Assembly (NCBI GenBank): GCA_016182605.1
Contig: JACPGE010000044.1
Location: 124,001-188,000, forward strand
Reading direction: 5' to 3'
Origin: Candidatus Hydrogenedentota bacterium
GTDB lineage: Bacteria > Hydrogenedentota > Hydrogenedentia > Hydrogenedentales > JAEUWI01
DNA length: 64,000 nucleotides
Shown here: positions 47,317 through 63,511 of the stretch, piece after piece
Layout of the letters: each line of letters starts with the position of its first letter
How positions within the stretch are numbered: position 1 is the stretch's first letter
Position numbers and translations under genes: made by a program
Notes under the pieces: generated by a model
The model's database searches: none
What the model saw: the letters and a program-made list of their open reading frames with translations, nothing else
What the model was told of the DNA's origin: nothing

Positions 47317-49038
47317 ATGGGCAATCGAAGTACATGGATACTGGGCGCCGCGGGACTGCTTCTGGCCCTGCTTTCTCCTTCCGTTTGCGCGGAGGACCTC
47401 TACGTCGATGTCAACGCCCCAAACTGCGGCCTGGCCGACGGTTCGGAAGAGTTTCCATTCTGCTCCATACAGGAAGGCTTGGACGCCGCCGCGCTCAGTG
47501 AAGAAGGCTCTATCAAGGTGCTTCCCGGCGTCTACCCGGAACAAGTTATCCTGCGGCCGGATATAGATATCGAAGCCGTTGAGGGGGATGACGACGGCGA
47601 TCCAGTCATTATCGAGTTCGCCCCCACCTCGATCGATTCCCCTTTTGTCGTTATGGGCGCCGGCGATGCCGGCCTGGAAGGCATTACCATCCGCGTTCCC
47701 GCAGGCGCCACGATTCCCGCCGTGCTCCTGCATATACCCGGCGTGCGCATGGAACTCGAAGAGGTCTTCTTCGACGGCGGCCTGAACCGGAACACCACCG
47801 GCATCCTGATTGCGGGAACCGGCTCCTCGCAAAGCCGCATCAAAAAATGCACCTTTACCCACCTCGAAGTCGGCGTCGAAGCCGTCGACACTTCCGTGCG
47901 TATCACGCGCAATCTCTTCACCGAACTCCTTCGTGACGCCATTTACGTGCACGCCCCGGAAAGTGGCGCCGGCCCCTTCGAAGTCCCCGAGATCGGGGTC
48001 TCAGGCACCCTCGAACTCTCCGGCTTCAACCAGTTCCGCGCGGTGGGGGGCTTTGTCGAGGACGATGACGACGACAAACAGATCATCAACCCGGGTGACG
48101 CCTTTATCCTGCGCAACACGACCGGACAAACCCTCTTCGCCCAGTTGAATGATTGGGACGTCTTCGACAGCGCCTCCATAGCAGCGCGCCTCAGCACCGA
48201 TCCGCCCTTCGCCAAATCGGCGCAAGAAAGCGCCACCGTGAACCAAGTGGAACCCTTTGTCTTCGAGCCCTTCCTCGGAAAGAGCGTTTTTCCGGGAAGC
48301 ATCTTCGTGCGCATTAAGGACCGGCACTCCAACACGCCCATAACAGGCGCTTCTCCCCGCCTCCTTCTTGCCGGACTGGACACTGGCATCAATCCCGGCT
48401 TCGACACGCGCAGCAGCCTCTATTCCTTTACCTTCCTCGCGCCCGCCACGTACACCCTCCGCGCGCAGGCCTCCGGGTTTGCCGCGCAGGATCTCAGCGT
48501 GGCCGTTATCCCTGGCGCCATTGAAGCCCGGGAGTTCGTCCTCGATGCCGATGCCATCACCATCCTGCCTCCCACCCTCACCCGCACACTTCCAGCGGGG
48601 CCATCCACCGAAACGATGCCCGTTCTAGAGGGTCTGGCCGAACCACATATGGCCGTCCATGTGTTCGTTGACGGCATTGAATTTGTTGCCGCGCAAGCCG
48701 GCGTCGCAGGGGCATTCTCCGTCATCGTCGGTCCACTTCCCCTGGGTGTCAACATCCTTGCCGCGCGCGCCGAAGATGAACTCGGCAACCAAAGCGAAAT
48801 TTCCAGTTCACTTGTATACGAAGTTCTACCTGCTGGCGAGGGTGAGGGTGAAGGTGAGGGTGAAGGGGAAGGTGAGGGTGAGGGTGAAGGGGAAGGTGAA
48901 GGTGAAGGTGAAGGGGAAGGCAAACTGGCGGGCTGTACACCCGCATCGGGCCCCCGGGAGTATCGTGCAGGCGATATCGCCGCCATGTTCTTCACCTGGG
49001 CGGCACTTTGGGCCCTATCCCGAAAGTCCCAATTTTGA
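47317..49038 (+). CDS. secreted beta-helix protein with GEGEGE linker and Cys-TM C terminus
   Basis: The 573-aa protein has a signal peptide and a right-handed beta-helix (about 25-240: DLYVDVNAPNCG, VLPGVYPEQVIL, GLEGITIRVPAG, FTHLEVGVEAVDTSV). Two beta-sandwich-like domains follow (to about 505), then an uninterrupted GE linker of about 30 residues, and a C-terminal block with GC, a TM helix (DIAAMFFTWAALWAL) and a basic end (SRKSQF). That Cys-TM-basic end resembles protein-sorting tails of the MYXO-CTERM/GlyGly-CTERM type. GAGG precedes the ATG. It may be the exported partner of the upstream outer-membrane protein. Confidence 0.75.
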   Translation: MGNRSTWILGAAGLLLALLSPSVCAEDLYVDVNAPNCGLADGSEEFPFCSIQEGLDAAALSEEGSIKVLPGVYPEQVILRPDIDIEAVEGDDDGDPVIIEFAPTSIDSPFVVMGAGDAGLEGITIRVPAGATIPAVLLHIPGVRMELEEVFFDGGLNRNTTGILIAGTGSSQSRIKKCTFTHLEVGVEAVDTSVRITRNLFTELLRDAIYVHAPESGAGPFEVPEIGVSGTLELSGFNQFRAVGGFVEDDDDDKQIINPGDAFILRNTTGQTLFAQLNDWDVFDSASIAARLSTDPPFAKSAQESATVNQVEPFVFEPFLGKSVFPGSIFVRIKDRHSNTPITGASPRLLLAGLDTGINPGFDTRSSLYSFTFLAPATYTLRAQASGFAAQDLSVAVIPGAIEAREFVLDADAITILPPTLTRTLPAGPSTETMPVLEGLAEPHMAVHVFVDGIEFVAAQAGVAGAFSVIVGPLPLGVNILAARAEDELGNQSEISSSLVYEVLPAGEGEGEGEGEGEGEGEGEGEGEGEGEGEGKLAGCTPASGPREYRAGDIAAMFFTWAALWALSRKSQF

Positions 49039-49168: not shown

Positions 49169-49346
49169 AGTCTGCCGGACTTCAGTCGATACGGCAGACA
49201 ACTTTGAGGACTTTACGCCACGTTTGCCTCCGGTTGATTCCAGAGCTTAGGAGCATTTATACTTAATCCGGCCTCGTTGACGCCCGCACTGGGGAACTGT
49301 GCCGAATTTCTTGGTCGATCTATTCCCCCCACAAGGTTTTTCTCAA

Positions 49347-50270
49347 ATGCTTTATCTACCCAAAATGCTGGCCCCGGATCTCATTCGCCCCAAGATCGTT
49401 GCCAAAGACAAGTGGGCGCTCCTCGACAAGATGGCCGACTTGATGGCCAGCAACAAGCCGCAGGCGCACGGGAAACCCCTTGATCGGCAGACCATATACG
49501 AGGCCGTGGAAAAACGGGAACTCGAACGCACCTCGGCCATCGGACAAGGATGCGCGTTGCCCCATGCGCGCATCTCAGGACTGGATCGGCCCGTGGCCTG
49601 CCTCGTTACCCTGGATCCGCCCGTTGATTTCGGCGCGGACGACCACGAGCCCGTTAGCATTGCCTGTCTGCTGCTCGTCCCCGAGGACGATCCCTCTTCC
49701 ACACTCAAGATCATGGCCGAAGTGGCCCTGCTTATGTCGGAGGACAAGAACCGGCAGTTCATGGCGTCCACCAGCGATGCCACAACCTTGCACGGCTTCC
49801 TCGACGGGCTGAGCACGGGCGTCGAAATGCCCCTGGTCGCGCGCAACATCATGCGCGGGCCTTTCTTCGCCGTCTATCCTGAAACCCCGCTCATCGAAGT
49901 GACCCGCCTGCTGCAACAGCATCTCCTCGAAGCTTGCGGTGTGCACGATCGCGAAGGCCACCTGGTTGGCGTCATCACCTGCGACAGCCTGTTTCAGTAC
50001 GGCTTTCCCGAGTTCTTCGGCCAACTCAAGAGTGTGGCCTTTATCCGGAAGTTCGACCCCTTCGAAAACTATTTCAAGGGGCTCAAGACCGCCACTGCCG
50101 GCGACGTCATGTCCACAGATTTCTCGGCGCTCCCGGAAGACGCCACGCTCCTCGAAGTGGTCTTCGAACTGGCCGTACGCAAGCACGCCAAGGTTTTCGT
50201 GGTGCGCGACGGCATTCTGACTGGAATCATCGATCGCATCACCGTTTTGAACCGTGTGCTGAATTTTTAG
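49347..50270 (+). CDS. PTS EIIA(Ntr)-like domain fused to CBS domains
   Basis: The 307-aa protein has an EIIA type-2 domain (about 1-150) with phospho-acceptor His73 in CALPHARISG, followed by two CBS domains (about 170-300: MRGPFFAVYPETPLIEVTRL, GDVMSTDFSALPEDATLLEV). No EIIB or EIIC domain is present, so this is regulatory, not sugar uptake. CBS domains bind adenosyl ligands. The gene is 9 nt before an ion transporter gene, and the pair is probably one unit. The start ATG 49347 matches the usual N terminus of EIIA domains; GTG 49299 adds 16 residues. Confidence 0.88.
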   Translation: MLYLPKMLAPDLIRPKIVAKDKWALLDKMADLMASNKPQAHGKPLDRQTIYEAVEKRELERTSAIGQGCALPHARISGLDRPVACLVTLDPPVDFGADDHEPVSIACLLLVPEDDPSSTLKIMAEVALLMSEDKNRQFMASTSDATTLHGFLDGLSTGVEMPLVARNIMRGPFFAVYPETPLIEVTRLLQQHLLEACGVHDREGHLVGVITCDSLFQYGFPEFFGQLKSVAFIRKFDPFENYFKGLKTATAGDVMSTDFSALPEDATLLEVVFELAVRKHAKVFVVRDGILTGIIDRITVLNRVLNF

Positions 50271-50279
50271 GGTCGGCCA

Positions 50280-51584
50280 ATGCTTACACTTTCCGTCGTC
50301 ATCTTCCTCGTCGTCTATGTACTTATCGCGTTCGAAGTAATCGACAAGACGGCCGCTGCACTTGCCGGCGCCTCTGCCGTCATCCTCCTCCATGCCGTTC
50401 CCTACGAGGTCGCGCTCCACAGCGTCGACATGAATGTGCTCTTCCTGCTCATCGGCATGATGATCGTCATGAGCATTCTCTCGGAGACCGGATTCCTCGA
50501 ATGGCTCGCCATTGCCATCGCCCAAAGAGCAAAGGGCAATGCCCGCGTCATCGTCCTGCAATTCCTGTTTGTTACGGCCTTCACCTCCGCCTTTCTGGAC
50601 AACGTTACCACGGTTATCCTCATTGCGCCCATCACCATTCTCATCACGCAGTTGCTCGGCGCGCCGACGGCGCCCGTCCTGATCCTCATGGCCATCTTCT
50701 CCAATATTGGCGGCACCGCCACCCTCATCGGCGATCCCCCCAACATCATTATCGGCTCCGGCAGCGGGCTCACCTTCAACGAGTTCCTGGTCAATCTCTC
50801 CCCGCCGGTCATCATCATGACCATCGTTTCCCTCGCGGTCATTAATTTCCGTTTCGGGCCGAAGCTCATTACCTCTGTGGAAGCCCGCCGGCGTGTCATG
50901 CTCGCCGAAGCGCGCCTGGCCATCCTGGATCACAGTCTCCTGCGCAAGAGCGGCTCCGTGCTCGCCATCATCCTCCTCGGCTTCTTCACCAGCCGGCTCA
51001 CCGGTTTTGAGCCCGGCATTGTGGCGCTCGGCGGCGCGGTTCTCATGATTATCGTCTGCCGCATCGATATCCACACGGCGCTCCACAAGGTGGAGTGGGC
51101 CACCATCCTGTTCTTCATCGGCCTCTTCATGCTCATCAGCGCCCTCGAACACAACCAGCTCTTCGAAATCCTGGGCGACAAACTTGTACACGCCACCCAA
51201 GGCAACCTCCTCCTCACCGTCATGGTTATCCTTTGGGTCAGCGCCTTCGCTTCCGCCATCGTGGACAACATTCCGCTTGTTATCGCCATGATGCCCCTCA
51301 TCAAGATCATGATTCCGGCCTTCGCCCTGCAAATGGGTATCGCAGACGATCCCGCGGCCATACACACCACTGTCGAAGCGCCGCTCTATTGGGCGCTTGC
51401 GCTCGGCGCCTGCCTCGGCGGCAACGGCACGCTCATCGGCGCCTCGGCCAATGTGGTGATCGCACAGATTGCCAACCGCAACAATGCGCCCATCACCTTC
51501 ATGGCCTTCACCAAAGAAGGCTTCCCACTTATGATTCTCACCGTCGCCATTGCCGCCGTCTACATGTACTTCCGGTACTTCTAG
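50280..51584 (+). CDS. ArsB/NhaD-superfamily ion transporter
   Basis: The 434-aa protein has about 11-12 TM helices and blocks characteristic of the ArsB/NhaD/SLC13-type superfamily: FLLIGMMIVMSILSETGFLE, TAFTSAFLDNVTTVILIAP, GGTATLIGDPPNIIIGSGS and a matching second half AFASAIVDNIPLVIAMMPLI, then GGNGTLIGASANVV. The DNV/DNI pairs and GDPPN motif fit Na+/H+ antiport or anion transport; arsenite is possible but no ars genes are near. The preceding EIIA-CBS protein probably controls it. A hairpin follows its stop. Confidence 0.87.
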   Translation: MLTLSVVIFLVVYVLIAFEVIDKTAAALAGASAVILLHAVPYEVALHSVDMNVLFLLIGMMIVMSILSETGFLEWLAIAIAQRAKGNARVIVLQFLFVTAFTSAFLDNVTTVILIAPITILITQLLGAPTAPVLILMAIFSNIGGTATLIGDPPNIIIGSGSGLTFNEFLVNLSPPVIIMTIVSLAVINFRFGPKLITSVEARRRVMLAEARLAILDHSLLRKSGSVLAIILLGFFTSRLTGFEPGIVALGGAVLMIIVCRIDIHTALHKVEWATILFFIGLFMLISALEHNQLFEILGDKLVHATQGNLLLTVMVILWVSAFASAIVDNIPLVIAMMPLIKIMIPAFALQMGIADDPAAIHTTVEAPLYWALALGACLGGNGTLIGASANVVIAQIANRNNAPITFMAFTKEGFPLMILTVAIAAVYMYFRYF

Positions 51585-52127: not shown

Positions 52128-53972
52128 ATGATTTCGCGTGTGCAAATCCTGATAGCCGCACTCACCATTGCAGGCATTGCGGTATTCCATCCGAGCGCCC
52201 ATGCCGCGCAGCCTTTCAAGGAGTTGGTCGGTAGCGTTGCCGTGGGCGAGGTCGCGAGCGGTCCCCTGCAGGTGCCCTACATTACATGGGGGGGCGACGC
52301 CGCCACCTTCTACGCCAATGGCGGTCTGACGACGGCGCCAGGAAGCCTCTTCCAGACGCAGGGCCTGAACTTGAAGCTCCGCGCTGGAGATGACTTTGTC
52401 CAACAGGTGCGGGACTATCTCAGCGGGAAAAGCCCCTTCTTGCGCGGCACCTTTCACATGATGGGACTCGCTTCCGAAGTCATTGGCAGCGATCCGCGCA
52501 CCAAGGGCGTGGTCATCCTGCAAATGACGTGGTCCGCGGGCGACCACATGGTGTCTCGAAACACCGTGAAAACCGTTAACGACTTGAAAGGCAAGACCAT
52601 TGCCATCCAGCAGGGCGGCCCGCATGTTGGCATGCTCGATGACATCCTGAAATCCGCGCAGTTGTCCTGGGACGACATCAAAGTCGTCTGGGCAAAAGAT
52701 CTCACCGGCTCGCCGGACAGCCCCGCGGAATTGCTCCGAAGCCGGAATGATATTGACGCCTGTTTTGTCATCACGCCAGACATGATCGGCCTTTGCGGCG
52801 GCCTGCAAAATACCGGCTCCGGCGCCGAAGGCACCGTAAAAGGCGTGCGCGTCCTCGTGTCCACGGCCGAGCTTTCCCGCTCCATCGCCGATGTCTATGT
52901 TTGCCGGAAAGATTTCTACGACAAAAACAAGGCGTTGATTACCAAGTTTGCCGCCGGTTACATGAGGGCGTGCGAAACCGTATTGGACCTCAAGAAAACC
53001 TATGAATCCAAGGGTTCACCGGAATACATTCAACTGTTGAAAATGGTCCAGGACATCTATGGGCAGCAGACCATTCCGACCCTGGAAGAAGACGCCCACG
53101 GCCTCATAGCCGATGCAACCTTTGTCGGTTATCCCGGCAACGTGGCCTTCTTCACCGGTAAAAACAATCTGGCCGGCTTCGATGCCTTTCAAACGGCTGC
53201 GCTCGACCTTGCCGTGCGCCTCGGCTACGCGAAAGTCAAAACGGGCCTCCTGCCTTCAGGATTGGATTACAACAGCCCTCTCTTTCGCAGTTACCTGACC
53301 AAGCTGGATGCCATCGGTGGAGAACGCTTCCGCGCGGAGGCCGTGGCGCAGGAAATCGAGGAGTTGAGCGCCGGCGGCGACTTGGACGACCGCACCATTC
53401 TCTCATTTACGGTCAATTTCGCTCCGAACCAGAATGAGTTCAGCGACATTCAGTACGGCGCGGAGTTTCAGCGCGTGGTGGAACTCGCCAGCAAGTATGG
53501 GAACGCCGTAATTGCCATTCGCGGCCACGCCGACCCTTCGAAAACCCTGCTGGAACTCGTGAAGTCCGGCATGGCGAAGGGTGTCCTGAAGCGCTCCGGA
53601 ACCACCGGCAACTATACCTACTCTCTCGAAGGCCGCCCACTCGACCTAAGCCAGACCCAACACATTACCGAACTCGTGGAGAAGGGCGCCTTCGACGGCG
53701 TCCCCGGCTCGAATCCCCGCGAGACCATGCAGGCAGCCCTGAACCTCTCCCTCACCCGTGCGGAAGCCGTTCGCGACAGCGTCATCACCTACGCCAATGG
53801 CAAGGACCTGCGTCTCGACAAGTCCCAGATTCAGCCGCTGGGCGTCGGAATCCGCGAGCCCTTCATTGCCAAGCCCGCGAATATGGATGAAGCACAACAG
53901 AATATGCGGGTGGAATTCCGGCTGTTGCGCGTTTTGGCAGAAGCTTCCACGCAGAGTGACTTCGATTTCTAA
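52128..53972 (+). CDS. substrate-binding protein fused to an OmpA-like domain (cluster gene 1)
   Basis: The 614-aa exported protein (signal MISRVQILIAALTIAGIAVF) has a periplasmic binding domain of the NrtA/SsuA/TauA-like type (about 35-390: PYITWGGDAATFYANGGL, VNDLKGKTIAIQQGGPHVGM). The C-terminal domain (about 420-600) is OmpA-like, with FTVNFAPNQNEFSD, IAIRGHADPS and SLTRAEAVRDSV. This would tether ligand binding to peptidoglycan. It starts the cluster, and the ATG at 52128 follows AAGAAAGGG. A vWA gene follows 31 nt later. Confidence 0.85.
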   Translation: MISRVQILIAALTIAGIAVFHPSAHAAQPFKELVGSVAVGEVASGPLQVPYITWGGDAATFYANGGLTTAPGSLFQTQGLNLKLRAGDDFVQQVRDYLSGKSPFLRGTFHMMGLASEVIGSDPRTKGVVILQMTWSAGDHMVSRNTVKTVNDLKGKTIAIQQGGPHVGMLDDILKSAQLSWDDIKVVWAKDLTGSPDSPAELLRSRNDIDACFVITPDMIGLCGGLQNTGSGAEGTVKGVRVLVSTAELSRSIADVYVCRKDFYDKNKALITKFAAGYMRACETVLDLKKTYESKGSPEYIQLLKMVQDIYGQQTIPTLEEDAHGLIADATFVGYPGNVAFFTGKNNLAGFDAFQTAALDLAVRLGYAKVKTGLLPSGLDYNSPLFRSYLTKLDAIGGERFRAEAVAQEIEELSAGGDLDDRTILSFTVNFAPNQNEFSDIQYGAEFQRVVELASKYGNAVIAIRGHADPSKTLLELVKSGMAKGVLKRSGTTGNYTYSLEGRPLDLSQTQHITELVEKGAFDGVPGSNPRETMQAALNLSLTRAEAVRDSVITYANGKDLRLDKSQIQPLGVGIREPFIAKPANMDEAQQNMRVEFRLLRVLAEASTQSDFDF

Positions 53973-54003
53973 GGCCCCACCGTTTCTCATGAAAGGCGAG
54001 CAT

Positions 54004-54945
54004 ATGAAACAGGGACTCCTCGGTCTGGTGGCCGCATGGGCACTGACATGCGCCGCCCTGCCCATGAACGCGCCGCGCGCAGAGGGCTATGCGGAACACG
54101 TGGTGATTATCCTCGATGGCTCCGGCTCCATGAGCGATCCCATCGACGATAACGGAAACAAGATGGATGCGGCCAAAAGCGCGTTGAAAGAAGTGCTGAA
54201 ACAAATTGAACCCGGCACGGAAGTCGGCTTACTCGTTTTCAGCAGCCACAGTCCGGCCGGCCCGTGGCACTATCCGCTCGGCAAACTGGAGATAGACCGG
54301 CTGATCGGCGCCATCGATCGGGTTCAAGCCGGAGGCGGGACGCCCTTGGGCGAATTCATCAAGCGCGGCGCCGATACGTTGATCGAAACACGCAAACAGC
54401 AATTCGGCTACGGCGCCTACCGCCTCCTCATCGTGACCGACGGGGAAGCCACGGACATGGACGTCATGCTGCGCTACGCCAAGGAAGTGACCAGCCGCGG
54501 GATTTCCATGGATGTGATTGGCGTGAAAATGGATCGGCAGCCCGCCCTCTCCAAGCTCGCCCGCTCTTACCGGGAAGCCAACAACCCGGAATCCCTGGCC
54601 CGCGCCATCGAAGACGTCTTCGCCGAACTCAGCCCCGATCAGCCTGGCGACACCGCCGTTGAGGACTTCGAGTTGCTCCAAGCCTTGCCCGCCGGCGCCG
54701 CGAAAGCCATGCTCGACGGGCTGACTAAGACTTCCGACGCCCCTATCGGCGCCATGGCGCCCCTTCCAGAGATCCCGACTCCAGATGCCGTACCTCGCCA
54801 CGCCTCCAATCCAACGCCATCGCAAAATGCCGGCTCGGACAATGGCATGTTCTCCATGCCAGGCGCAGGCATCTTGCTGGTTATTTTCATCGTGGTCATG
54901 GGCGTCGTCTCGGGAAATGCGAAGAAGCGGAAGCGGAGGCGCTGA
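54004..54945 (+). CDS. von Willebrand A domain protein with C-terminal TM anchor (cluster gene 2)
   Basis: The 313-aa protein has an N-terminal signal, a vWA domain (about 30-205) and a C-terminal TM helix (GILLVIFIVVMGVVSG) with a Lys/Arg-rich end. The MIDAS is complete: DGSGSMSD, Thr in GGTPLGEF and Asp in VTDGEATD. vWA domains mediate metal-dependent protein contacts. The domain lies outside the cytoplasm. GAAAGG precedes the ATG. The 54946-55063 gap contains a degenerate TTTCACCAC-type repeat. Confidence 0.87.
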   Translation: MKQGLLGLVAAWALTCAALPMNAPRAEGYAEHVVIILDGSGSMSDPIDDNGNKMDAAKSALKEVLKQIEPGTEVGLLVFSSHSPAGPWHYPLGKLEIDRLIGAIDRVQAGGGTPLGEFIKRGADTLIETRKQQFGYGAYRLLIVTDGEATDMDVMLRYAKEVTSRGISMDVIGVKMDRQPALSKLARSYREANNPESLARAIEDVFAELSPDQPGDTAVEDFELLQALPAGAAKAMLDGLTKTSDAPIGAMAPLPEIPTPDAVPRHASNPTPSQNAGSDNGMFSMPGAGILLVIFIVVMGVVSGNAKKRKRRR

Positions 54946-54993
54946 GCTCATGTGAAAGCCTGCCGGAGCACGACGCCAGCATGCATACCTTGC

Positions 54994-55014
54994 GGCGGTG
55001 AAGTATGCTCAGCG
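54994..55014. repeat. degenerate copy of the TTTCACCAC repeat arm
   Basis: GCGGTGAAGTATGCTCAGC resembles the reverse complement of the arm at 51872-51890 with two changes. A poor partner lies at 54979-54990. Confidence 0.5.
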
Positions 55015-55063
55015 CAATTGGCAGGCCGGTGTGTTGCGCAATGATTAACGGGATTGGAACTCC

Positions 55064-56644
55064 ATGAAACAGCAACAGAAAGCAGTGGGTTGCATTGCCG
55101 CGGCGGTCGTTTGGGTCCTGATCCTCTTCATTGCCGCCGGCGCCTACAAGTTTGCAATTCAGCCTTTTTTTGCCGGGGAACTGGAAAACAGCACCGGCTC
55201 GGAAAGTCCGTACGACCACGACATCACATTGGCACTGGATTCCTTCTCGGGCTACGCCGTGCTGCGCTCGCCTGCCTTCGCAGGCCAACTCAAGTCCCAC
55301 CGCATCCGCCTTAACATCCAGGACGACAAAGCCGGCTACACCGCAAGAATGAAAGCCCTGCAAGAAGGTGCAATCCAATTCGCCGCCTTCACTGTCGACT
55401 CTTACCTCAGCGCGGGGGCCGCCCTCGGTGAATATCCCGGCACCATTATTCTCATAATCGACGAAACACGCGGCGCGGACGCCATCGTCGCCAAGAAGCA
55501 AGACGTCGCCACCATTCAGGATCTGGACCATCCCGAGGCCCGCTTCGTACTCACGCCAGATTCGCCAAGCGAATTCCTCGCGCGTATCGTCCTTGCCGGC
55601 TTCAGCCTCCCCAGCTTGCCGCAAGACTGCTGGGAAGAGCTGGATGGCGCGGAGGCCGTCTTCAATCAATTGCGTGCTTCGAAGGGGGGGGAGAAGCGCG
55701 CCTACGTCTTGTGGGAGCCCTACGTTTCCAAGGCGCTCGCCGACCCTGCCGTACACATCCTCCTCGACAGCAGCAAGCTTCAAGGCTACATCGTGGATGT
55801 GCTCGTAGTGGAGCGCCGCTTCCTCGCGGCAAACCCCGCCGTGGCCGCCACCGTGATCGAAAGCTATCTGCGCACCCTCTATTCCTATCAAAGCCGCGAC
55901 GGCGCCATGCAGGACTTGCTGCTCGATGACGGAAAAAAAACCGGCGTCAAGGATCTCTCCAAAGAACAGGCCGCAAAACTTGTCGATGGCATTCGCTGGA
56001 AGAACACCGTGGAAAACTTCGGTCATTTTGGTCTGGACTCCGAGGCGCAACGCGACGGCGCCGTGCATATGGAAGACATGATCGCCAACATTCTCCGGGT
56101 CCTTCTGCAAACCGGCGCAATACAAGGCGACCCGGTCGGCAACATGACCCATACCCTCTACTACGATCAAATCCTGCGCGGTTTGCAGTCTCAAGACTTT
56201 CACCCCGCCCGGACCGCCAACGTCATACAAGGCGTGGACGGCCAGGCGCCCCAGGAATCCGTGGCCACCCAGGACGTGTTGCCGGAACTCTCCGAACCGC
56301 AATGGGCAGCCCTGGCGCCGGTGGGCGAGCTGCGAATGGAACCCATTTCCTTCGCGCGCGGCACGGCGAGGATCAACATCCAAAGCCAGCGCGATCTCGA
56401 AGAACTTTCAAAACGCCTCCAGGCCTTTCCGCGCTACTATCTGAAGATTATCGGCCATGCGCGGGCAGAAGGCGATTCGGAAGCGAATCTGCAATTGGCC
56501 ACGGAGCGCGCAAATGCCGCGATGCAGGTGCTCCTGCAATTCAACGTGGCCCCCCAGCGCATTCACACGGAGGCCCAGCCCCCGAGACTGGAGAACGGAT
56601 CAGCACAATCGGTAAGCTTCCAAGTGGGACAGCCACCTTATTGA
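55064..56644 (+). CDS. membrane-anchored substrate-binding protein with OmpA domain (cluster gene 3)
   Basis: The 526-aa protein has one N-terminal TM helix (VGCIAAAVVWVLILFIAAGA) without an obvious cleavage site, a binding domain (about 50-360: ITLALDSFSGYAVLRSPAF, YVLWEPYVSKALADPAVH), and an OmpA-like end (about 420-526: ISFARGTARINIQSQRDLEE, IIGHARAEGDSEANLQLATE). It is a paralogue in layout of cluster gene 1. Its TGA overlaps the next TTG start. Confidence 0.82.
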   Translation: MKQQQKAVGCIAAAVVWVLILFIAAGAYKFAIQPFFAGELENSTGSESPYDHDITLALDSFSGYAVLRSPAFAGQLKSHRIRLNIQDDKAGYTARMKALQEGAIQFAAFTVDSYLSAGAALGEYPGTIILIIDETRGADAIVAKKQDVATIQDLDHPEARFVLTPDSPSEFLARIVLAGFSLPSLPQDCWEELDGAEAVFNQLRASKGGEKRAYVLWEPYVSKALADPAVHILLDSSKLQGYIVDVLVVERRFLAANPAVAATVIESYLRTLYSYQSRDGAMQDLLLDDGKKTGVKDLSKEQAAKLVDGIRWKNTVENFGHFGLDSEAQRDGAVHMEDMIANILRVLLQTGAIQGDPVGNMTHTLYYDQILRGLQSQDFHPARTANVIQGVDGQAPQESVATQDVLPELSEPQWAALAPVGELRMEPISFARGTARINIQSQRDLEELSKRLQAFPRYYLKIIGHARAEGDSEANLQLATERANAAMQVLLQFNVAPQRIHTEAQPPRLENGSAQSVSFQVGQPPY

Positions 56645-57417
56645 CGGAACGGCCTGTGTTCAAACCAAATGCTGTTGACGACCAAACCTTACGAAGAAGC
56701 ATGTACCTCTCCGTGCTGGGCAGCCCATGGACTCTTCTGCCCATGCTTGCGGGGTCTACGCTCTTCGTTGCCTCATGGATTTTGGGGATTCGTCCCGATT
56801 TGGGAATGCTGGCCGGTCTCACGGGCGCCCTCGGGGCAGCGGGCATGTTCTTCACGACGCTGATTCTCCGCGGAGAATCCTTCGCGCGGCGCGCCCTCGA
56901 CGATTTTCAGGCCGACGCCCGAAACGAAAGGGAAGCCCAATTGGACCGGCTGGAGGCGCAATTGCAGGCCGATGAGGACCCCCGCACCGACGCGGCCTTG
57001 CGCGACCTCCGCTCCTTGACCGCCGCCTTCGAAGTGCTGACCCGGAATGAAGACGGCGAGGCGGGCCAGGCGCTGTTGATCAACGTGCACATGAACGTGC
57101 TGCAAATGTTTGAGCAGGCCGTGCGCTCCCTTGAACAGTCCTATGCGCTCTGGCAGACTATTCAAGATCTTTCCACGCGGGAGGCGCGCGAGCCGCTTTG
57201 GAAGAAGCGGGAGAACGTTGTCAACGAAATCCTCCTGAGCATCCGCCAACTCGGCGCGCTACTCGCTTCGTTGCAGGATAGCGGGAGCATCCCCGGCGGC
57301 CCATCGGACTTGGCGCAGGTCCGGGAGGAATTGGAACAAAGCCTCCGCGTCGCAAAACAGACCGGCGCGCGGTTGAGGGCATTCGAACAGGATTTAAGGA
57401 CGGGCGCCGGTGAATAA
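56641..57417 (+). CDS. membrane protein with coiled coil (cluster gene 4)
   Basis: The 258-aa protein has two TM helices (about 33-75: LLPMLAGSTLFVASWILGI, LAGLTGALGAAGMFFTTLIL) followed by a long charged helix region (about 80-258) rich in Glu, Gln and Arg, likely a coiled coil in the cytoplasm. I recognise no family. Start may be TTG 56641, overlapping the previous stop, or ATG 56701. The PspA-like gene follows. Confidence 0.65.
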   Translation: MTERPVFKPNAVDDQTLRRSMYLSVLGSPWTLLPMLAGSTLFVASWILGIRPDLGMLAGLTGALGAAGMFFTTLILRGESFARRALDDFQADARNEREAQLDRLEAQLQADEDPRTDAALRDLRSLTAAFEVLTRNEDGEAGQALLINVHMNVLQMFEQAVRSLEQSYALWQTIQDLSTREAREPLWKKRENVVNEILLSIRQLGALLASLQDSGSIPGGPSDLAQVREELEQSLRVAKQTGARLRAFEQDLRTGAGE

Positions 57418-57473
57418 TTTTCTTGTGCCGCTGTAAATCAGGAATGTGCACTTTAGCACGAAGGAGACAGGAC

Positions 57474-58301
57474 ATGGTCAGGGCACTCTATCGTTGGTTC
57501 AAGGCCGTTGGATACCTTATGACCGGCCAGCTTGATTCTGCCCGGCGCACGCTGGACTCCAACCCCCATGTCATGGCGGCAAAGTATGACGACGTCATAC
57601 GGGAGAAGACCGCCCGCATTCATCAGTACAAGCAGGCGGTCGCCGGCCTCATCGCCCAGCAGGAGGGCAAGCTGCAAAAGATCAAGGCCCTCACCGATGA
57701 GGTCGGCCGGCTGGAAGATCTCAAGGCGGGCGCCCTGGCAAAGGCCAAGAAGCGCGTCGAGGAATTGAAGGCCGCCGGCAAGCCCCTTGAGGCCATTCAT
57801 ACCGACGAAGACTATCTGCGCTGCCAGACGGCCTTCAAGGATTTCTCCGGCACGCTCGCGGAGAAACAGGCGCGCATTGACGAACTGGAAGAACATATCG
57901 GCGAATACAGCAAGCGCGTCGCCGAACACAAGGTCCAGCTTCAAAGCCTTATGCGGGAGATCGATCAGATCAAGGCCGAGAAGACCGATGCGGTCGCGGA
58001 TGTCATTACGGCGCGCGAAGAGAAAGAAGTGGCCGATACGCTCGCCGGAATCGCGAAGGACGGCGCCGCCGAAGAATTGCAGCGCATGCGCCAGCTTCGA
58101 AATGAACTGAAGGCCGAAGCCCGCGTCAGCAAGGAGCTGGCCGGCACCGATTCACGCGCGCAGGAAGCCGATTTCCTGGAGTACGCGCGCAAGGACCAGA
58201 GCAAGAATGAATTTGATGCCTTGATCGGCCTGGCCGCGGAGGCCGACGGGGTTAAGACCAGCGTGCCGCAAGAGAAACCCGAGAGTGCACTGCCCGAATA
58301 A
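57474..58301 (+). CDS. PspA/IM30-family protein (cluster gene 5)
   Basis: PspA proteins bind stressed inner membranes and form ESCRT-III-like assemblies. The 275-aa protein is almost entirely helical, starting LYRWFKAVGYLMTGQ and continuing with long heptad-rich coiled-coil segments (LIAQQEGKLQKIKALTDEVG, QARIDELEEHIGEYSKRVAE). It ends with a charged tail. It is longer than typical PspA (about 220 aa), and no PspF or PspBC genes are present. AAGGAGACAGGAC precedes the ATG at 57474. Confidence 0.82.
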   Translation: MVRALYRWFKAVGYLMTGQLDSARRTLDSNPHVMAAKYDDVIREKTARIHQYKQAVAGLIAQQEGKLQKIKALTDEVGRLEDLKAGALAKAKKRVEELKAAGKPLEAIHTDEDYLRCQTAFKDFSGTLAEKQARIDELEEHIGEYSKRVAEHKVQLQSLMREIDQIKAEKTDAVADVITAREEKEVADTLAGIAKDGAAEELQRMRQLRNELKAEARVSKELAGTDSRAQEADFLEYARKDQSKNEFDALIGLAAEADGVKTSVPQEKPESALPE

Positions 58302-58362
58302 GCGGAGCAGCTTCACCCAAGCGGCCCAACCAACCCGTGGTATACATGAAGGAGATCGACAG

Positions 58363-59406
58363 ATGGGAAGAATCATTATTTTCGCTGTGTGCGCGGCAGC
58401 CCTTGCGCAAACTGCATTCGCCGCGAAGCCCCCCGTATTCTCTCTGGCCTGGAGTGAATACCCCTCCTGGAGTGCCTTTGGCGTCTGCCACGAAACCGGC
58501 CTCATCAATGGCGCCGCCGGAAAACTCGGGTCCATCGAAGAGAAATGGGGCGTGGACATCGAGTTGAAGGAAGCCGAATACGACCCGTGCATCGCCATGT
58601 ATGGCGCGGGCCAGACAGACGCTGTCTGTATTACCAACATGGACGTGCTCAACGCGTCGCTTTCGCGGCCCGGTGTGGCCATTCTGGCCACGTCCACCAG
58701 TTACGGCGCCGATGCCTGCATCGTGTCCTCTGCGATCGCCGATGTAAAAGACCTGAAGGGCAAGAAGGTGCGGGGACTGGCCTTGAGTGTCTCCGAATAT
58801 TGCTTTGCCCGGAACCTGCAGATCCTGGGCGAAGACCCCGCGGAATACACCTTTGTCAACATGGATCCCGGCGCGGCAGCCCTGGCAATGCAGCAAAAGC
58901 AGGCGGACTTCGATGCCATCGTCGTGTGGAATCCCTTCGTCCTGGATACGCTCAATCAACGCAAGGATTGCCACGTGCTCTTCGATTCCTCCTCCATCCC
59001 CAACGAAATCATTGATATGGTGGTCATGTCGGAAAGCGCGCTCCAAAAGCCCAAAGGAAAAGAGTTCGCCTCTGCCGTGGCCGACGCGTTTTATGCGCTG
59101 AACAAGCGCATGGCCGACGCCACTACACGAGACGACACCTTGATCGCGCTGGGCGAAAAATTCTCCAATCTGGACCTTCAGTCTATGCGGAAAGTCGTTC
59201 AGCAAACCAAATTCTACGCCACCCCGGAAGAAGCCACAAAGCTGTTCGACAGCGCGGAACTCAAAGACACCATGACCAAAGTGGTGGACTTTTGCGTGAA
59301 AATGGAAATTGTGGCGAAGAAGCCCGTCGTCGCCTTTGGGGCCGGTGCAACGGGCAACCTGGTTTTCGATCCCGCCTATATTGCCGCAGCCGCGGCGAAA
59401 CCATAA
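58363..59406 (+). CDS. ABC substrate-binding protein, NrtA/SsuA-like (cluster gene 6)
   Basis: The 347-aa protein has a signal peptide (IIIFAVCAAALAQTAFAA) and a bilobal binding domain: FSLAWSEYPSWSAFGVCHE, YDPCIAMYGAGQTDAVCITN, ADVKDLKGKKVRGLALSVSE and ADFDAIVVWNPFVLDTL. It lacks the OmpA domain of cluster genes 1 and 3. It is next to the permease and ATPase genes, so it is the likely soluble receptor of the transporter. GAAGGAG precedes the ATG. Confidence 0.85.
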   Translation: MGRIIIFAVCAAALAQTAFAAKPPVFSLAWSEYPSWSAFGVCHETGLINGAAGKLGSIEEKWGVDIELKEAEYDPCIAMYGAGQTDAVCITNMDVLNASLSRPGVAILATSTSYGADACIVSSAIADVKDLKGKKVRGLALSVSEYCFARNLQILGEDPAEYTFVNMDPGAAALAMQQKQADFDAIVVWNPFVLDTLNQRKDCHVLFDSSSIPNEIIDMVVMSESALQKPKGKEFASAVADAFYALNKRMADATTRDDTLIALGEKFSNLDLQSMRKVVQQTKFYATPEEATKLFDSAELKDTMTKVVDFCVKMEIVAKKPVVAFGAGATGNLVFDPAYIAAAAAKP

Positions 59407-59496
59407 GCTGCCCGCATTTGTCCGGGGCGCCGGCGCCGGGGATTCTTGAGTCCCTGGCGCCTCCAAATGTAATCTGGGCAGGGAGGAATCGCACCT

Positions 59497-60300
59497 ATGA
59501 TCGGCGAACCTATCGCCAGAGTCTGGCATGTCACGCTGGGTATCGGGGCCGTGCTGTTGCTGCTCATCGCCTATACCATTTTGTCCATGCGGCAGCACCG
59601 GGAAAACCCCGATGACAAGACCATCCCGAGTTGGAGCCAACTGAGCGAAGGCGTCAAGAAATCGGTGGAGGTGAACCAGCGCTCGAACGAGCGGTGGGTT
59701 GTGGCTGACGCGCAAGCTACCAGTTTGCGCCTCTTCTGGGGGGTGTTCTGGGGTGTCTCAGGCTCGCTCCTCATCGGCATGCTCATGGGGTGTTTCGCCT
59801 TTGTCGAAGCCTTTCTCTATCCGCCCCTGGCATTCCTGGCCAAGATTCCGCCCATTGCCCTCCTCGCCGTTTTCTTCGTCCTCGCCGGCACGGGCGAAAC
59901 CATGTACGTCACCATGATCGCTTTTGGCGTCTTGCCCACCCTGGCACAAACCGTATACCTTGCCGTGAAAGAAGTGCCCGCGGAATTGCGCTACAAGGCC
60001 TACACGCTCGGCGCGTCGCACCTCGAAATCATCTGGAATGTCCTGTTGCGCCACGTGCTGCCCAAACTCATCGATGCGATTCGCCTCCAGATCGGGCCCG
60101 CTATGGTCTACCTGATCGCCGCCGAAATGGTGGTCGGCGATGTCGGCTTTGGCTACCGTATCCGCCTGCAATTCAAACTCCTCAACATGAGTGTCGTCTA
60201 TCCCTATATCGTCGTCCTTGGCGCTTTTGGCTTTGGCATCGACTACGCCCTGCGAAAGCTTCAAGCCTTCGTTTCTCCCTGGTATGCGAAAGGATACTGA
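59497..60300 (+). CDS. ABC transporter permease, NrtB/SsuC-like (cluster gene 7)
   Basis: The 267-aa permease has about six TM helices and the EAA loop that contacts the ATPase (AYTLGASHLEIIWNVLLRHV). Its N-terminal helix and cytoplasmic loop are followed by a LPTLAQTVYLAVKEVP block. It belongs to the nitrate/sulfonate/taurine-type permeases. A GGGAGG site precedes the ATG at 59497. Confidence 0.9.
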   Translation: MIGEPIARVWHVTLGIGAVLLLLIAYTILSMRQHRENPDDKTIPSWSQLSEGVKKSVEVNQRSNERWVVADAQATSLRLFWGVFWGVSGSLLIGMLMGCFAFVEAFLYPPLAFLAKIPPIALLAVFFVLAGTGETMYVTMIAFGVLPTLAQTVYLAVKEVPAELRYKAYTLGASHLEIIWNVLLRHVLPKLIDAIRLQIGPAMVYLIAAEMVVGDVGFGYRIRLQFKLLNMSVVYPYIVVLGAFGFGIDYALRKLQAFVSPWYAKGY

Positions 60301-60302
60301 CG

Positions 60303-61256
60303 ATGGACCAGCCAGCTTCGCTCGCGATCGACTGCCTCTCCCATGGTTTCGGGACGAAACCCGTGCTTCACGATGTGCAACTCCGCATTTTGCGCGGACA
60401 AATCGTGGCCTTGGTGGGTCCAAGCGGATGCGGTAAATCCACCCTGCTCCGGGCCATCGTCGGCACCCATCTTCCCCGCCAGGGCACCGTCACCGTCTTC
60501 TCCGGCAATTCCCACTTGACGGGACATGTTGTCGAAGGCCCCGGACGGGATCGCGGCATCGTGTACCAGCACTATTCCCTGTTCCCCTTTCTGACCGCGG
60601 TAGAAAACGTCGCCTTTGGCCTGATGCTCGATCAAACGAATATTTCGTACCGCCTCTTCAAGTTTCCGCGATGGTTGAAGCGCCGCGCAGAACATCTGAA
60701 ACAAGCACGGGAATTCCTCGACCGCGTCGGACTGGGCAGCGCGGCCAGCCTCTACCCCAGCGAGATGTCGGGCGGCATGTGTCAGCGCGTGGCCGTCGCG
60801 CAGGCGCTGATTATGAAACCCGCCTTGCTGCTTTTGGACGAGCCCTTTGGCGCCCTCGACGAAGCAATGCGCGAAGAGTTGCAGCGCATGCTCCTTGGGC
60901 TTTATCAAGAGAACCTCGCGGCGAGACGAAAAGGGGAACTGGAGCCGCATACCATGTTCATCGTCACGCACGAGTTGAACGAGGCCCTCTATGTCGGCGA
61001 CCGCGTCGTGGGGCTCTCCCAGTATTGGGACTGGCGCCAGGCCGGTCATGCGCAGCCACCTGGGGCAACGGTCGTTTATGATTGTTCCGCGCCCATCTTC
61101 GAACCGGACGATACGCGCGATTTCTCGTGCTTTGCCGGCCAACGGGAAGAGATTCGAGACGTGGTGTTCAATCCCGATAGCGCCTATCCCCGGGAAAAAC
61201 ATCTGCGCTACTGGCAAGAGCTGGAACAGCAGCGCGAAGCGGAACCCGCGCCATGA
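60303..61256 (+). CDS. ABC transporter ATPase (cluster gene 8)
   Basis: The 317-aa ATPase has Walker A GPSGCGKST, a Q-loop in VYQHYSLFPFL, the signature MSGGMCQR in place of LSGGQQQR, Walker B LLLLDEPFGALD and the switch His in IVTHELNEAL. A C-terminal extension of about 70 residues (GLSQYWDWRQAGHAQPPGAT onward) is longer than in NrtD/SsuB. It follows the permease by 2 nt and overlaps the AAA+ gene start by 4 nt. Confidence 0.92.
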   Translation: MDQPASLAIDCLSHGFGTKPVLHDVQLRILRGQIVALVGPSGCGKSTLLRAIVGTHLPRQGTVTVFSGNSHLTGHVVEGPGRDRGIVYQHYSLFPFLTAVENVAFGLMLDQTNISYRLFKFPRWLKRRAEHLKQAREFLDRVGLGSAASLYPSEMSGGMCQRVAVAQALIMKPALLLLDEPFGALDEAMREELQRMLLGLYQENLAARRKGELEPHTMFIVTHELNEALYVGDRVVGLSQYWDWRQAGHAQPPGATVVYDCSAPIFEPDDTRDFSCFAGQREEIRDVVFNPDSAYPREKHLRYWQELEQQREAEPAP

Positions 61257-63073
61257 CCGCGAAAGCGCAGGAGTTCATGAAGCAAGCCGGGCGCATGTTG
61301 AACGCAGGCCAGGCGCGTACCCTCCTCTTCTCAGGAAACATGTACGATATCTTCCGGCATTCGGATGAAAAGGGAGATGCCTACCACACCCTCGCCGACT
61401 TCATCGTTCAACAGTGGCGGGACTCCGGGCATACCCTCGTGATCTATGAGATCAACGGTCCCGTGCGCTTCATCGACTCCAAAGAAAAGGAACTCGCGCG
61501 CGCGGCCTGGCTTCAATGGCGCACCGGCTATGACGAGCACGATCTTGCCATTTCGAAGATGTTGCAGCCGCGCCAAGTGAAGGAGGCCACCGAGTCGTAT
61601 CTCAAAGACTTCGACGATCACCTGCTCGGCGCCGTGGGGAACCCAACCGTCGCCCTGGAATTTTTGCGCCAGCTTTGCCTCTGTTCGCGGTCGTCCACGC
61701 CCGGCGGACCCCTCTTCGGTCGGAAACTGCTCGTCCTTATTGAAGCGGCCGACCTCATCTTGCCCCTGGGCGACATCGCCACCCTCTCCGACAGCGACCG
61801 CCACCGCGTTTGCGTATGCCACGATTGGTTCTCCGACCCAGGCTTCGTTTCGGGCAACGACTCGGTCATCCTGCTCACCGAGTCCCGAAGCATGCTCAAC
61901 GCGCGCGTCGCGCAGTTGCCCCACGTCTTGGAGGTCGCGATCCCCGCGCCAGACAGCGCCGCACGACTCCACTTTTTACAGTGGTTCAAGAACCGGCCAC
62001 AGGCAAAGGTGAAACTGGAACATTGGAGCACGGAGGAAGCGCTCGCGGAGGCAACCGCCGGATTGACCCTGCAGGCCCTGCAGCAACTGCTGAAAGGGGC
62101 GGCGCATTCAGGCGCGAAACTCGATCGGGAACTGGTGATCAAGAAGGTGGAGGAACACATTTGCAGCCAGCTCTCAGAGGACATGATCGAGTTCAAGAAA
62201 CCCCAGCACCATTTGGAAGACACCGTGGGGTTCACGACGCTCAAGAAATTCCTCCGCGAGGAATTCATACCGCGATTGCGGGCGCCGGAAGACTACGCCT
62301 TGCCTGGCGCCGCCGTCTGCGGGCCTATCGGCGGCGGAAAAACCTTCATCTTTGAGGCCGTCGCCGCGGAACTCGACATGGTGGTCCTCGTCCTGAAAAA
62401 CATCCGCAGCCAATGGTTCGGCCAGACCGATGTGCTTTTCGAGCGGCTGCGCCGCGTCCTCGCCGCCCTGTCGAAAGTGCTCATCTTTGTCGACGAGGCC
62501 GACACCCAGTTCGGCGGTATCGGCCCAGACACCCACGAGACGGAACGGCGGCTTACAGGAAAGATTCAGGCCATGATGTCCGACCCGCAACTGCGCGGAC
62601 GGGTCATCTGGCTCCTTATGACAGCCCGCATCCATCATCTTTCCCCAGATATCCGCCGTCCGGGACGCGTGGGCGATCTCATCATTCCCGTGCTCGATCC
62701 AGAAGGCGCGGATCGGCTGGAGTTTATCCAATGGATGGTGAAGCCGGTGCTGGAAGCCCCGCTGGATGATAAGCAACAGGCCGAATTGGACCGGTTGACT
62801 CAGAAGTTCTCGTCCGCAAGTTTTGCCGCCATCCGGTCGGAACTCAAGGCCCACAAGAGCATCGGCGGCGGCCCGCTCCCCTTCGAACGCGTCCGCGCAA
62901 TCATGCACGACCATATCCCACCGGCCATAGAAGGCACCCGCCGCTATCAGACCCTCCAGGCTCTCGTGAACTGCACACGCCGGAGTCTTCTGCCCAATCC
63001 GGCCGTGAGCGACGAAGAGCGGAAAGAATGGCACGCCGAATTGGCACGCCTGGAATCCGAGGGCATCCGCTGA
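61253..63073 (+). CDS. tandem AAA+ ATPase with degenerate first domain (cluster gene 9)
   Basis: The 606-aa protein has an N-terminal half (about 15-250) that looks like a degenerate AAA-type domain without Walker A (LLVLIEAADLILPLGDIATL, VILLTESRSML). The C-terminal half is an active classical AAA domain: Walker A GPIGGGKT (357-364), Walker B KVLIFVDEAD (about 406-415), and an Arg finger in DIRRPGRV. The architecture resembles Ycf46-like ATPases. It may remodel PspA or ABC-complex partners. The ATG at 61253 overlaps the ATPase stop (ATGA). Confidence 0.88.
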   Translation: MTAKAQEFMKQAGRMLNAGQARTLLFSGNMYDIFRHSDEKGDAYHTLADFIVQQWRDSGHTLVIYEINGPVRFIDSKEKELARAAWLQWRTGYDEHDLAISKMLQPRQVKEATESYLKDFDDHLLGAVGNPTVALEFLRQLCLCSRSSTPGGPLFGRKLLVLIEAADLILPLGDIATLSDSDRHRVCVCHDWFSDPGFVSGNDSVILLTESRSMLNARVAQLPHVLEVAIPAPDSAARLHFLQWFKNRPQAKVKLEHWSTEEALAEATAGLTLQALQQLLKGAAHSGAKLDRELVIKKVEEHICSQLSEDMIEFKKPQHHLEDTVGFTTLKKFLREEFIPRLRAPEDYALPGAAVCGPIGGGKTFIFEAVAAELDMVVLVLKNIRSQWFGQTDVLFERLRRVLAALSKVLIFVDEADTQFGGIGPDTHETERRLTGKIQAMMSDPQLRGRVIWLLMTARIHHLSPDIRRPGRVGDLIIPVLDPEGADRLEFIQWMVKPVLEAPLDDKQQAELDRLTQKFSSASFAAIRSELKAHKSIGGGPLPFERVRAIMHDHIPPAIEGTRRYQTLQALVNCTRRSLLPNPAVSDEERKEWHAELARLESEGIR

Positions 63074-63133
63074 ATCCAAGGCCCGGCGACCCCCAAAAAT
63101 CGCCCCAGCCTCCTTCCTTGGATTTCCGCCCCG

Positions 63134-63511
63134 TGCCAGAACAATCTCAAGCAGTTCGGGCTCGCCTTCAAGATGTACGGCAACGAGTCCAAACGGAAGA
63201 AATCCCCCCCCCCCTGCACCGGCACAAGCTCCTGGGAAGTGATCATGGCCGGCGGCGCGCGCAGATACAACAACTACCTGAAGTGCGGTTACAGCTACCC
63301 GGGCATCATGATCAATCCTGCCGGCCCGTGCGGCACATCCGCAGAAGGGCAATCCGGGGTTGCCCCCGATCCAGTGAGCAGCACTTGTCCGCCCCGCTCT
63401 ACAACGGGTAAGATCCATGCATGGCCCGTGGGGCCACCGGAATACTCGGTCCGGCGGCCCTTTGGGGTGTACGGCTTTCCTGCCCGCAAAGCCCAAAGCA
63501 GTTCCGGATAA
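63134..63511 (+). pseudogene. remnant of a prepilin-like (DUF1559-type) protein
   Basis: From 63134 the frame reads CQNNLKQFGLAFKMYGNESK, a strong match to the conserved start of the DUF1559/prepilin-like secreted proteins of planctomycete-type bacteria, just after the missing N-terminal pilin helix. The following part has short similarity (SPPPCTGTSSWEVIMAG, CGTSAEGQ) and then drifts. No start codon, signal or TM helix precedes it, and it runs in frame from the AAA+ stop. An 11-C tract at 63204-63214 is a likely site of damage. The 63074-63133 part shows nothing. Confidence 0.7.

Follow-up and report, generated by a model that had tools for sequence, protein, structure and literature searches.

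The gene cluster and its products

The DNA considered here, called the window, is a stretch of 64,000 nucleotides from a Candidatus Hydrogenedentota bacterium (contig JACPGE010000044.1, positions 124,001 to 188,000). Between window positions 52128 and 63073 it carries a cluster of nine open reading frames, g1 to g9, in which genes for an ATP-binding cassette (ABC) importer and several envelope proteins stand together with those for a diverged PspA (g5) and a tandem AAA+ protein (g9). An earlier note on this DNA had put all nine genes on one strand, and all nine were indeed found on the + strand where it had located them:

g1, 52128..53972, + strand: secreted substrate-binding protein (SBP) of the NitT/TauT type, fused to an OmpA-like domain (Pfam NMT1, 6.8e-8)
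g2, 54004..54945, + strand: von Willebrand factor A (vWA) protein with a signal peptide, a C-terminal transmembrane (TM) segment and a basic tail (VWA, 2.9e-13; alignment and hydropathy)
g3, 55064..56644, + strand: N-terminal TM anchor followed by SBP-like and OmpA-like parts (OmpA, 1.4e-12; NCBIfam matches of SBP type)
g4, ~56641..57417, + strand: a helical (coiled-coil) domain, predicted to be cytoplasmic, preceded by two TM helices
g5, 57474..58301, + strand: diverged PspA/IM30, ESCRT-III-like (Pfam 4e-6, below cut-off; profile and fold comparison)
C-terminal LPE motif of g5, 58290..58298, + strand: proposed docking or entry tag for the AAA+ protein
g6, 58363..59406, + strand: free periplasmic SBP of the importer (NMT1 type in Pfam; TIGR03427, 1.4e-49, below its cut-off; TauA, 5.8e-6)
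g7, 59497..60300, + strand: ABC importer permease of the TauC/SsuC/NrtB type (BPD_transp_1, 4.4e-16; SaoP/TauC)
g8, 60303..61256, + strand: ABC importer ATPase (ABC_tran, 2.9e-31)
g9, 61253..63073, + strand: tandem AAA+ protein (PF00004, 2.9e-14, in the C-terminal half)
Walker A motif GPIGGGKT of the C-terminal AAA domain of g9, 62321..62344, + strand: sequence motif
Pore loop 1 motif QWFG of the C-terminal AAA domain of g9, 62411..62422, + strand: sequence motif

Of the several 4-nt overlaps reported previously, only that between g8 and g9 (ATGA at 61253) is certain. The start codon of g4 is either TTG 56641 or GTG 56659, and g3 and g4 overlap only if the former is used; the other intergenic gaps measure 2-118 nt. 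Scans of the cluster for promoters and terminators yielded no more candidates than were obtained with shuffled sequence.

Conservation of the nine-gene order

The sample of the organism's own phylum comprised 68 species genomes, all belonging to one order. The complete nine-gene order is present in G144, a member of another phylum, at 37-68% identity per gene (locus L123). In the own phylum it is found in G055, where it is split across contigs (L077 and L040), in G058 up to the end of the contig inside PspA (L078), and in G025 with a gap at g4-g5 (L093 and L037). The cluster relatives are 36-75% identical to the window proteins. With this recurrence, the nine-gene arrangement is not a product of chance. 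As the genes flanking the cluster in L123 differ from those in the window, the conserved unit consists of g1-g9. A scan of the contigs of the source genome for the AAA+ protein revealed one locus only.

Two types of cluster and the PspA-AAA+ dyads

The relatives split into two diverged types, a nine-gene type I and a six-gene type II, a division that is reported here for the first time. Within the phylum, the AAA+ proteins of type I, to which the cluster of the window belongs, are 57-65% identical to g9, and those of type II are 23-28% identical to type I. Typical type II clusters have the order PspA, SBP-OmpA, permease, ABC ATPase, TM coiled-coil protein and AAA+, as seen in G046, G048, G049, G051, G177, G150, G353 and others; an additional SBP-OmpA gene is present in the operon of G186. 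A vWA gene lies beside the type II operon of G353, which is from another phylum (L138:16353-17102), and the association with vWA may extend beyond type I.

Ten genomes of the own phylum have a type I AAA+ gene, and in seven of them the locus consists of PspA followed by AAA+ alone (L032-L036, L038 and L039), with no transporter, SBP, vWA or g4 gene. Neither the type I permease nor g3 or g4 has a detected orthologue in these seven genomes; for the type I transporter genes, g3 and g4, orthologues were found exclusively in genomes carrying the type I cluster. The AAA+ proteins of the dyads are ~60-65% identical to that of the window and have kept the same motifs. Dyads occur in type II as well (L139 and L140), and in seven genomes, G369 among them, the AAA+ gene stands apart, the type II PspA gene being located elsewhere in the genome. 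In a maximum-likelihood tree of the AAA+ proteins, several forks of which are weakly supported, the dyads are scattered among the nine-gene loci; because of this scatter, the transporter/sensor part has probably been lost several times. The dyad closest to the window (L032:3338-6634, in G023) lies divergently beside genes for a YqiJ/NfeD-like membrane protein, a flotillin/band-7 protein and the start of a coiled-coil protein, as judged by eye only. This neighbourhood recalls the PspA/band-7 context in passages of Ravi et al. (2024).

Co-occurrence of the two type II proteins was scored in 386 genomes, with thresholds of >140 bits for PspA and E <1e-60 for the tandem AAA+. Both were present in 19 genomes and both absent from 363, with PspA only in one and AAA+ only in three (Fisher p 4e-28, phylogeny ignored). 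In the sole genome with PspA only, G032, the contig breaks off within the operon. The type I PspA and AAA+ sets coincide except in G025 and G058, where the missing member falls at contig ends. The AAA+ protein is thus tied to PspA and not to the transporter, which is a second new observation.

These distributions bear on the view, expressed in the earlier note, that the nine genes encode one machine. They do form a conserved unit, the order being kept in G144, G055, G058 and G025; that this unit is indivisible is not supported, as 7 of 10 type I loci in the own phylum are bare PspA-AAA+ pairs. Independent occurrence of the transporter genes and the PspA, AAA+ and vWA genes in relatives had been named beforehand as an argument against such a machine. 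What was found is an asymmetric link: PspA-AAA+ exists without the transporter in those 7 of 10 loci, and the type I transporter was found only with the cluster. The PspA/AAA+ pair is therefore the core, and the transporter/sensor part an optional attachment.

The diverged PspA and its tail motif

As g5 falls below the Pfam cut-off, its assignment to PspA rests on comparison of profiles and folds. The profiles of type I and type II PspA align end to end (hhalign E 9e-6, 219 columns), and the type II partners in the own phylum pass the PF04012 cut-off in the genome search. An AlphaFold2 (AF2) model of g5, all AF2 models having been built on one or two sequences each, has helices at residues 2-28, 31-100, 112-193, 199-221 and 244-258 and is confident in the hairpin only (pTM 0.46). 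It shows the helix order of PspA, namely helix 0, the long hairpin, helix 4 and a C-terminal helix. The top seven Foldseek matches of this model are all Vipp1 or PspA, the best at 5.4e-4. The same genome contains a separate canonical PspA (G000:C122:71281-71928, 160 bits), which makes the PspA of the cluster a second copy, and a diverged one.

All ten complete type I PspAs that were aligned end, after a variable linker, in LPE (nine proteins) or LPV (one). Near the C-terminus of type II PspAs the motif [KR]-x-[ILMV]-G is present, most often followed by P; it is doubled in L127/L188, L178 and L181. The type II motif was spotted in a first alignment, and six unlinked partners (L176-L181), fetched later as a held-out test, all contained it. 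Neither motif was found in the 30 canonical PspAs of the own phylum. The tails of the type II PspA of G353 and of a second, weaker-scoring PspA copy in G286 (L197) are devoid of the motif. The conservation of these tails in the aligned PspA partners of the AAA+ proteins is new here. By analogy with the MIM motifs of ESCRT-III and their recognition by Vps4, the tail motif is a candidate site for docking or entry of the AAA+ protein, a step that we infer. The tail motifs are unlike MIM1 and MIM2 in sequence.

The tandem AAA+ protein

The motifs of the AAA+ proteins were tabulated for 36 sequences. In 35 of these, which are all that align at this place, the N-terminal domain carries a GN..D-like motif instead of Walker A and has no P-loop. 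The C-terminal domain has Walker A, a Walker B of the DEAD type and both Arg-finger positions. Its pore loop 1 contains an aromatic residue (W-F/Y-G, W-V-G, W-Q-G or Y-V-G), as in AAA enzymes that thread their substrates. The solved structures closest to g9 are those of CDC48/VCP, and in the NCBIfam ranking CDC48 came first and CdvC, the archaeal Vps4, second.

Importer, candidate envelope sensors and g4

The importer set is complete, with an NMT1-type SBP, a BPD_transp_1 permease and an ABC ATPase. As to its substrate, matches were obtained with the models for TauA, SsuA, urea (Uca) and Sao, none of which reached the curated cut-off. In G323, which belongs to another phylum, the permease and SBP genes of a type I cluster are separated by additional genes (L126:3364-10000), namely those for 4-hydroxyphenylacetate decarboxylase, its activase and two enzymes of the cystathionine pathway, followed by a helicase-like gene (L173). 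The inserted enzymes point to no single substrate.

A profile of g1 and its relatives matches the taurine-binding TauA (3.6e-15) and, as the nearest OmpA domain, the peptidoglycan domain of Acinetobacter OmpA (3.4e-15); the SBP part is TauA/SsuA-like. Both the ligand Asp and the ligand Arg are present in its OmpA-like domain (GHAD ... NLSxxRA), and GHAD and LSxxRA also occur in the type II proteins. In g3, which has a conserved C-terminal end (...SVSFxxGQxPY), the ligand Asp has been lost (GHARAEG) in all five orthologues. A pair of peptidoglycan-tethered SBP-OmpA proteins had been proposed in the earlier note; these residues support tethering for g1, and since the Asp is lost throughout, attachment of g3 to the wall is doubtful. 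The MIDAS motif of the g2 vWA domain is intact (DxSGS / GGTPLG / VTDGE). From its signal peptide and C-terminal TM segment it follows that the vWA domain faces the periplasm.

The g4 protein has no match in Pfam or NCBIfam. Its orthologues are present in L077, L078 and L123, and its AF2 model is all-helical with low confidence. The possibility that g4 is an ESCRT-III/Snf7 protein was considered and gained no support: the profile-profile probability with PspA is 5%, and neither a sequence search of the PDB nor Foldseek, run with the poor single-sequence model, lent it support.

Neighbouring genes

Directly downstream of g9, at 63130-63260, lies a pilin-like remnant (QNNLKQFGLAFKMYGNES...). Intact pilin-like genes are located near the dyads of L034 (11224-12093) and L038 (8263-9387). 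Upstream of the cluster, at 49299-51584, a protein with PTS-IIA-like and CBS domains and an ArsB/NhaD-like multi-TM transporter, as judged from the translations, are encoded by adjacent genes on the same strand. Further upstream (47317-49038) a secreted protein resembling right-handed repeat proteins is encoded; it has a long (GE)n tract and then, at the C-terminus, a hydrophobic segment that may be a tail for surface sorting.

Comparison with known systems

The cluster had not been recognized earlier as a named system. Its general outline has in fact been published already: in passages of Ravi et al. (2024; PMC11237479), operons are described in which PspA is accompanied by a double AAA+ protein, inactive in its N-terminal domain, and by an ABC ATPase, a permease and SBP-OmpA proteins, and a Vps4-like action is proposed. 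The cluster shares with the operons described there PspA, an AAA+ protein with an inactive N-terminal copy, the ABC ATPase, permease and SBP-OmpA genes and a helical TM protein, as well as the proposed role in ATP-dependent membrane remodelling. It differs from them in having a periplasmic vWA protein, two more SBPs and a fixed nine-gene order. The main text of PMC11237479, which alone was searched for these terms, contains neither 'vWA' nor 'von Willebrand', and the layout with three SBPs is likewise absent from it; the passages concerned mention neither two types nor tail motifs. Those passages describe a Snf7 homologue with a TM segment. With its two TM segments and helices g4 may be the counterpart, but it gave no match to ESCRT-III by profile or, with its low-confidence model, by fold.

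Like ESCRT-III and Vps4 of archaea and eukaryotes (CdvB/CdvC), the cluster combines a putative polymer protein of the ESCRT-III superfamily, carrying a short C-terminal motif, with a dedicated classical AAA+ protein that has an aromatic residue in its pore loop. Unlike Vps4, the AAA+ protein is a tandem with a dead N-terminal domain and has no MIT domain. The canonical Psp systems (PspFABC, Lia and PspAA) also contain a PspA-family protein, but no PspF, PspB, PspC or Lia is encoded among the nine cluster genes. The SBP, permease and ATPase belong to the families of the NitT/TauT importers (TauABC, SsuABC, NrtABCD and the Uca SBP of TIGR03427); in contrast to these, the SBPs of the cluster are multiplied and fused to OmpA-like domains, and the scores lie below curated cut-offs. 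An SBP of an ABC transporter, ProX-like, is also encoded in the ESCRT-III/Vps4 locus Meth_adaptin (PMC10936438). These loci differ from the cluster in being archaeal and in the kind of SBP, and the text of that paper mentions no OmpA, permease or ABC transporter.

A proposed mechanism and its alternatives

The explanation we favour, with confidence a little above even, is a dedicated PspA/AAA+ core resembling ESCRT-III and Vps4, coupled to an optional module for import and envelope sensing. The analysis itself shows the gene content, the domains, their conservation, the co-occurrence and the motifs, and from these we infer polymerization, hexamer formation, docking, threading, the direction of the coupling and the substrate. 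The g5 protein would polymerize on the inner face of the plasma membrane as a coat of the PspA type. The g9 protein would be a hexameric classical AAA+ ATPase in which the catalytically dead N-terminal domain recruits the substrate and the active C-terminal ring pulls PspA from its conserved C-terminal motif, so that the coat is disassembled or remodelled in a cyclic manner. With its two TM helices and cytoplasmic coiled coil, g4 might anchor or nucleate the coat and link it to the membrane. On the periplasmic side, the wall-tethered SBP-OmpA protein g1, the membrane-tethered SBP-OmpA-like g3 and the membrane-tethered vWA protein g2 may report on solute or on the state of the envelope. The NitT/TauT-type importer g6-g8, together with the tethered SBPs and vWA, would supply this signal or would itself be stabilized. 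Co-occurrence of PspA and AAA+, the bare dyads, the tail motifs, the AAA+ motifs, the g5 model and the idea put forward independently in PMC11237479 all speak for this explanation. Its PspA-recycling half is fairly well supported by the comparisons; the suggestion made previously that the AAA+ protein acts on PspA is very probably right.

Several observations weigh against this explanation. Shared operons are the only sign that the PspA pair and the transporter affect each other. The g5 score with PspA_IM30 (PF04012) is 27.0 bits against a curated cut-off of 33.9, and a profile made of type I PspAs only reaches Vipp1 at no better than E 0.3. The three genomes with AAA+ only (G120, G171 and G158) are without a detectable type II PspA. 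Most of the AAA+ proteins lack the sensor-1 Asn that is usual in AAA enzymes and have another residue in its place, in the majority A, C or S. Pfam and NCBIfam searches gave no MIT match for g9, the N-terminal region of which reads as a degenerate AAA domain.

The frequency of transporter-free dyads, their scatter over the AAA+ tree and the separation of PspA from AAA+ in G369 and six other genomes would also suit two separate modules that share an operon for co-expression only. One would be a sulfonate-type importer together with its envelope sensors, the other a PspA-AAA+ pair for membrane repair that protects the membrane and does not contact the transporter. Such an arrangement is rather unlikely, as the set of transporter, SBP-OmpA and TM coiled-coil genes recurs with the pair in both types and in several phyla despite an AAA+ identity of 23-28%, and as the type I transporter genes, g3 and g4 have orthologues, so far as found, only where there is a type I cluster. 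The 4-nt overlap of g9 with the ABC ATPase gene in the nine-gene form might instead suggest a chaperone role for the AAA+ protein, in the assembly or quality control of the importer or the SBPs, with PspA merely supporting the membrane during insertion. This is improbable: the dyads have dropped every importer gene and retained PspA, with an AAA+ protein that is still ~60-65% identical and has the same motifs, and the conserved tail motif sits on PspA. Pairs of AAA+ and vWA proteins are common, and the presence of both in one operon could be read as a pair of the MoxR type in which the AAA+ protein works with the vWA protein. That reading is hardly credible and was rejected on the topology of the vWA protein and the AAA clade: the signal peptide and C-terminal TM segment place vWA outside the cytoplasm, the AAA+ protein is a tandem protein of the classical clade nearest to CDC48/VCP, and vWA is missing from most AAA+ loci.

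Implications for the PspA family

Whether PspF acts as a recycling ATPase, or whether Vipp1 has an equivalent, in the way that Vps4 serves ESCRT-III, has been described as unclear (PMC8281802), and systems of Vps4 with ESCRT-III have been placed in archaea and eukaryotes only (PMC10936438). Recycling by an ATPase of the polymers formed by bacterial relatives of ESCRT-III is thus an open question in the former paper. We tentatively propose, at somewhat less than even confidence, that several bacterial phyla have a true counterpart of ESCRT-III and Vps4, in which PspA polymers would be recycled by a dedicated tandem ATPase of a pseudo-AAA and an AAA domain that recognizes a short linear motif at the C-terminus (LPE in type I, KTxGP-like in type II). 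In some lineages an importer whose solute sensors are anchored to the wall would gate this cycle. With the strict partnership of PspA and AAA+ and the conserved tail motif, the question becomes testable with two proteins and amenable to point mutation. If the proposal is true, membrane remodelling would, in the forms linked to a transporter, be connected with the sensing of solutes at the cell wall.

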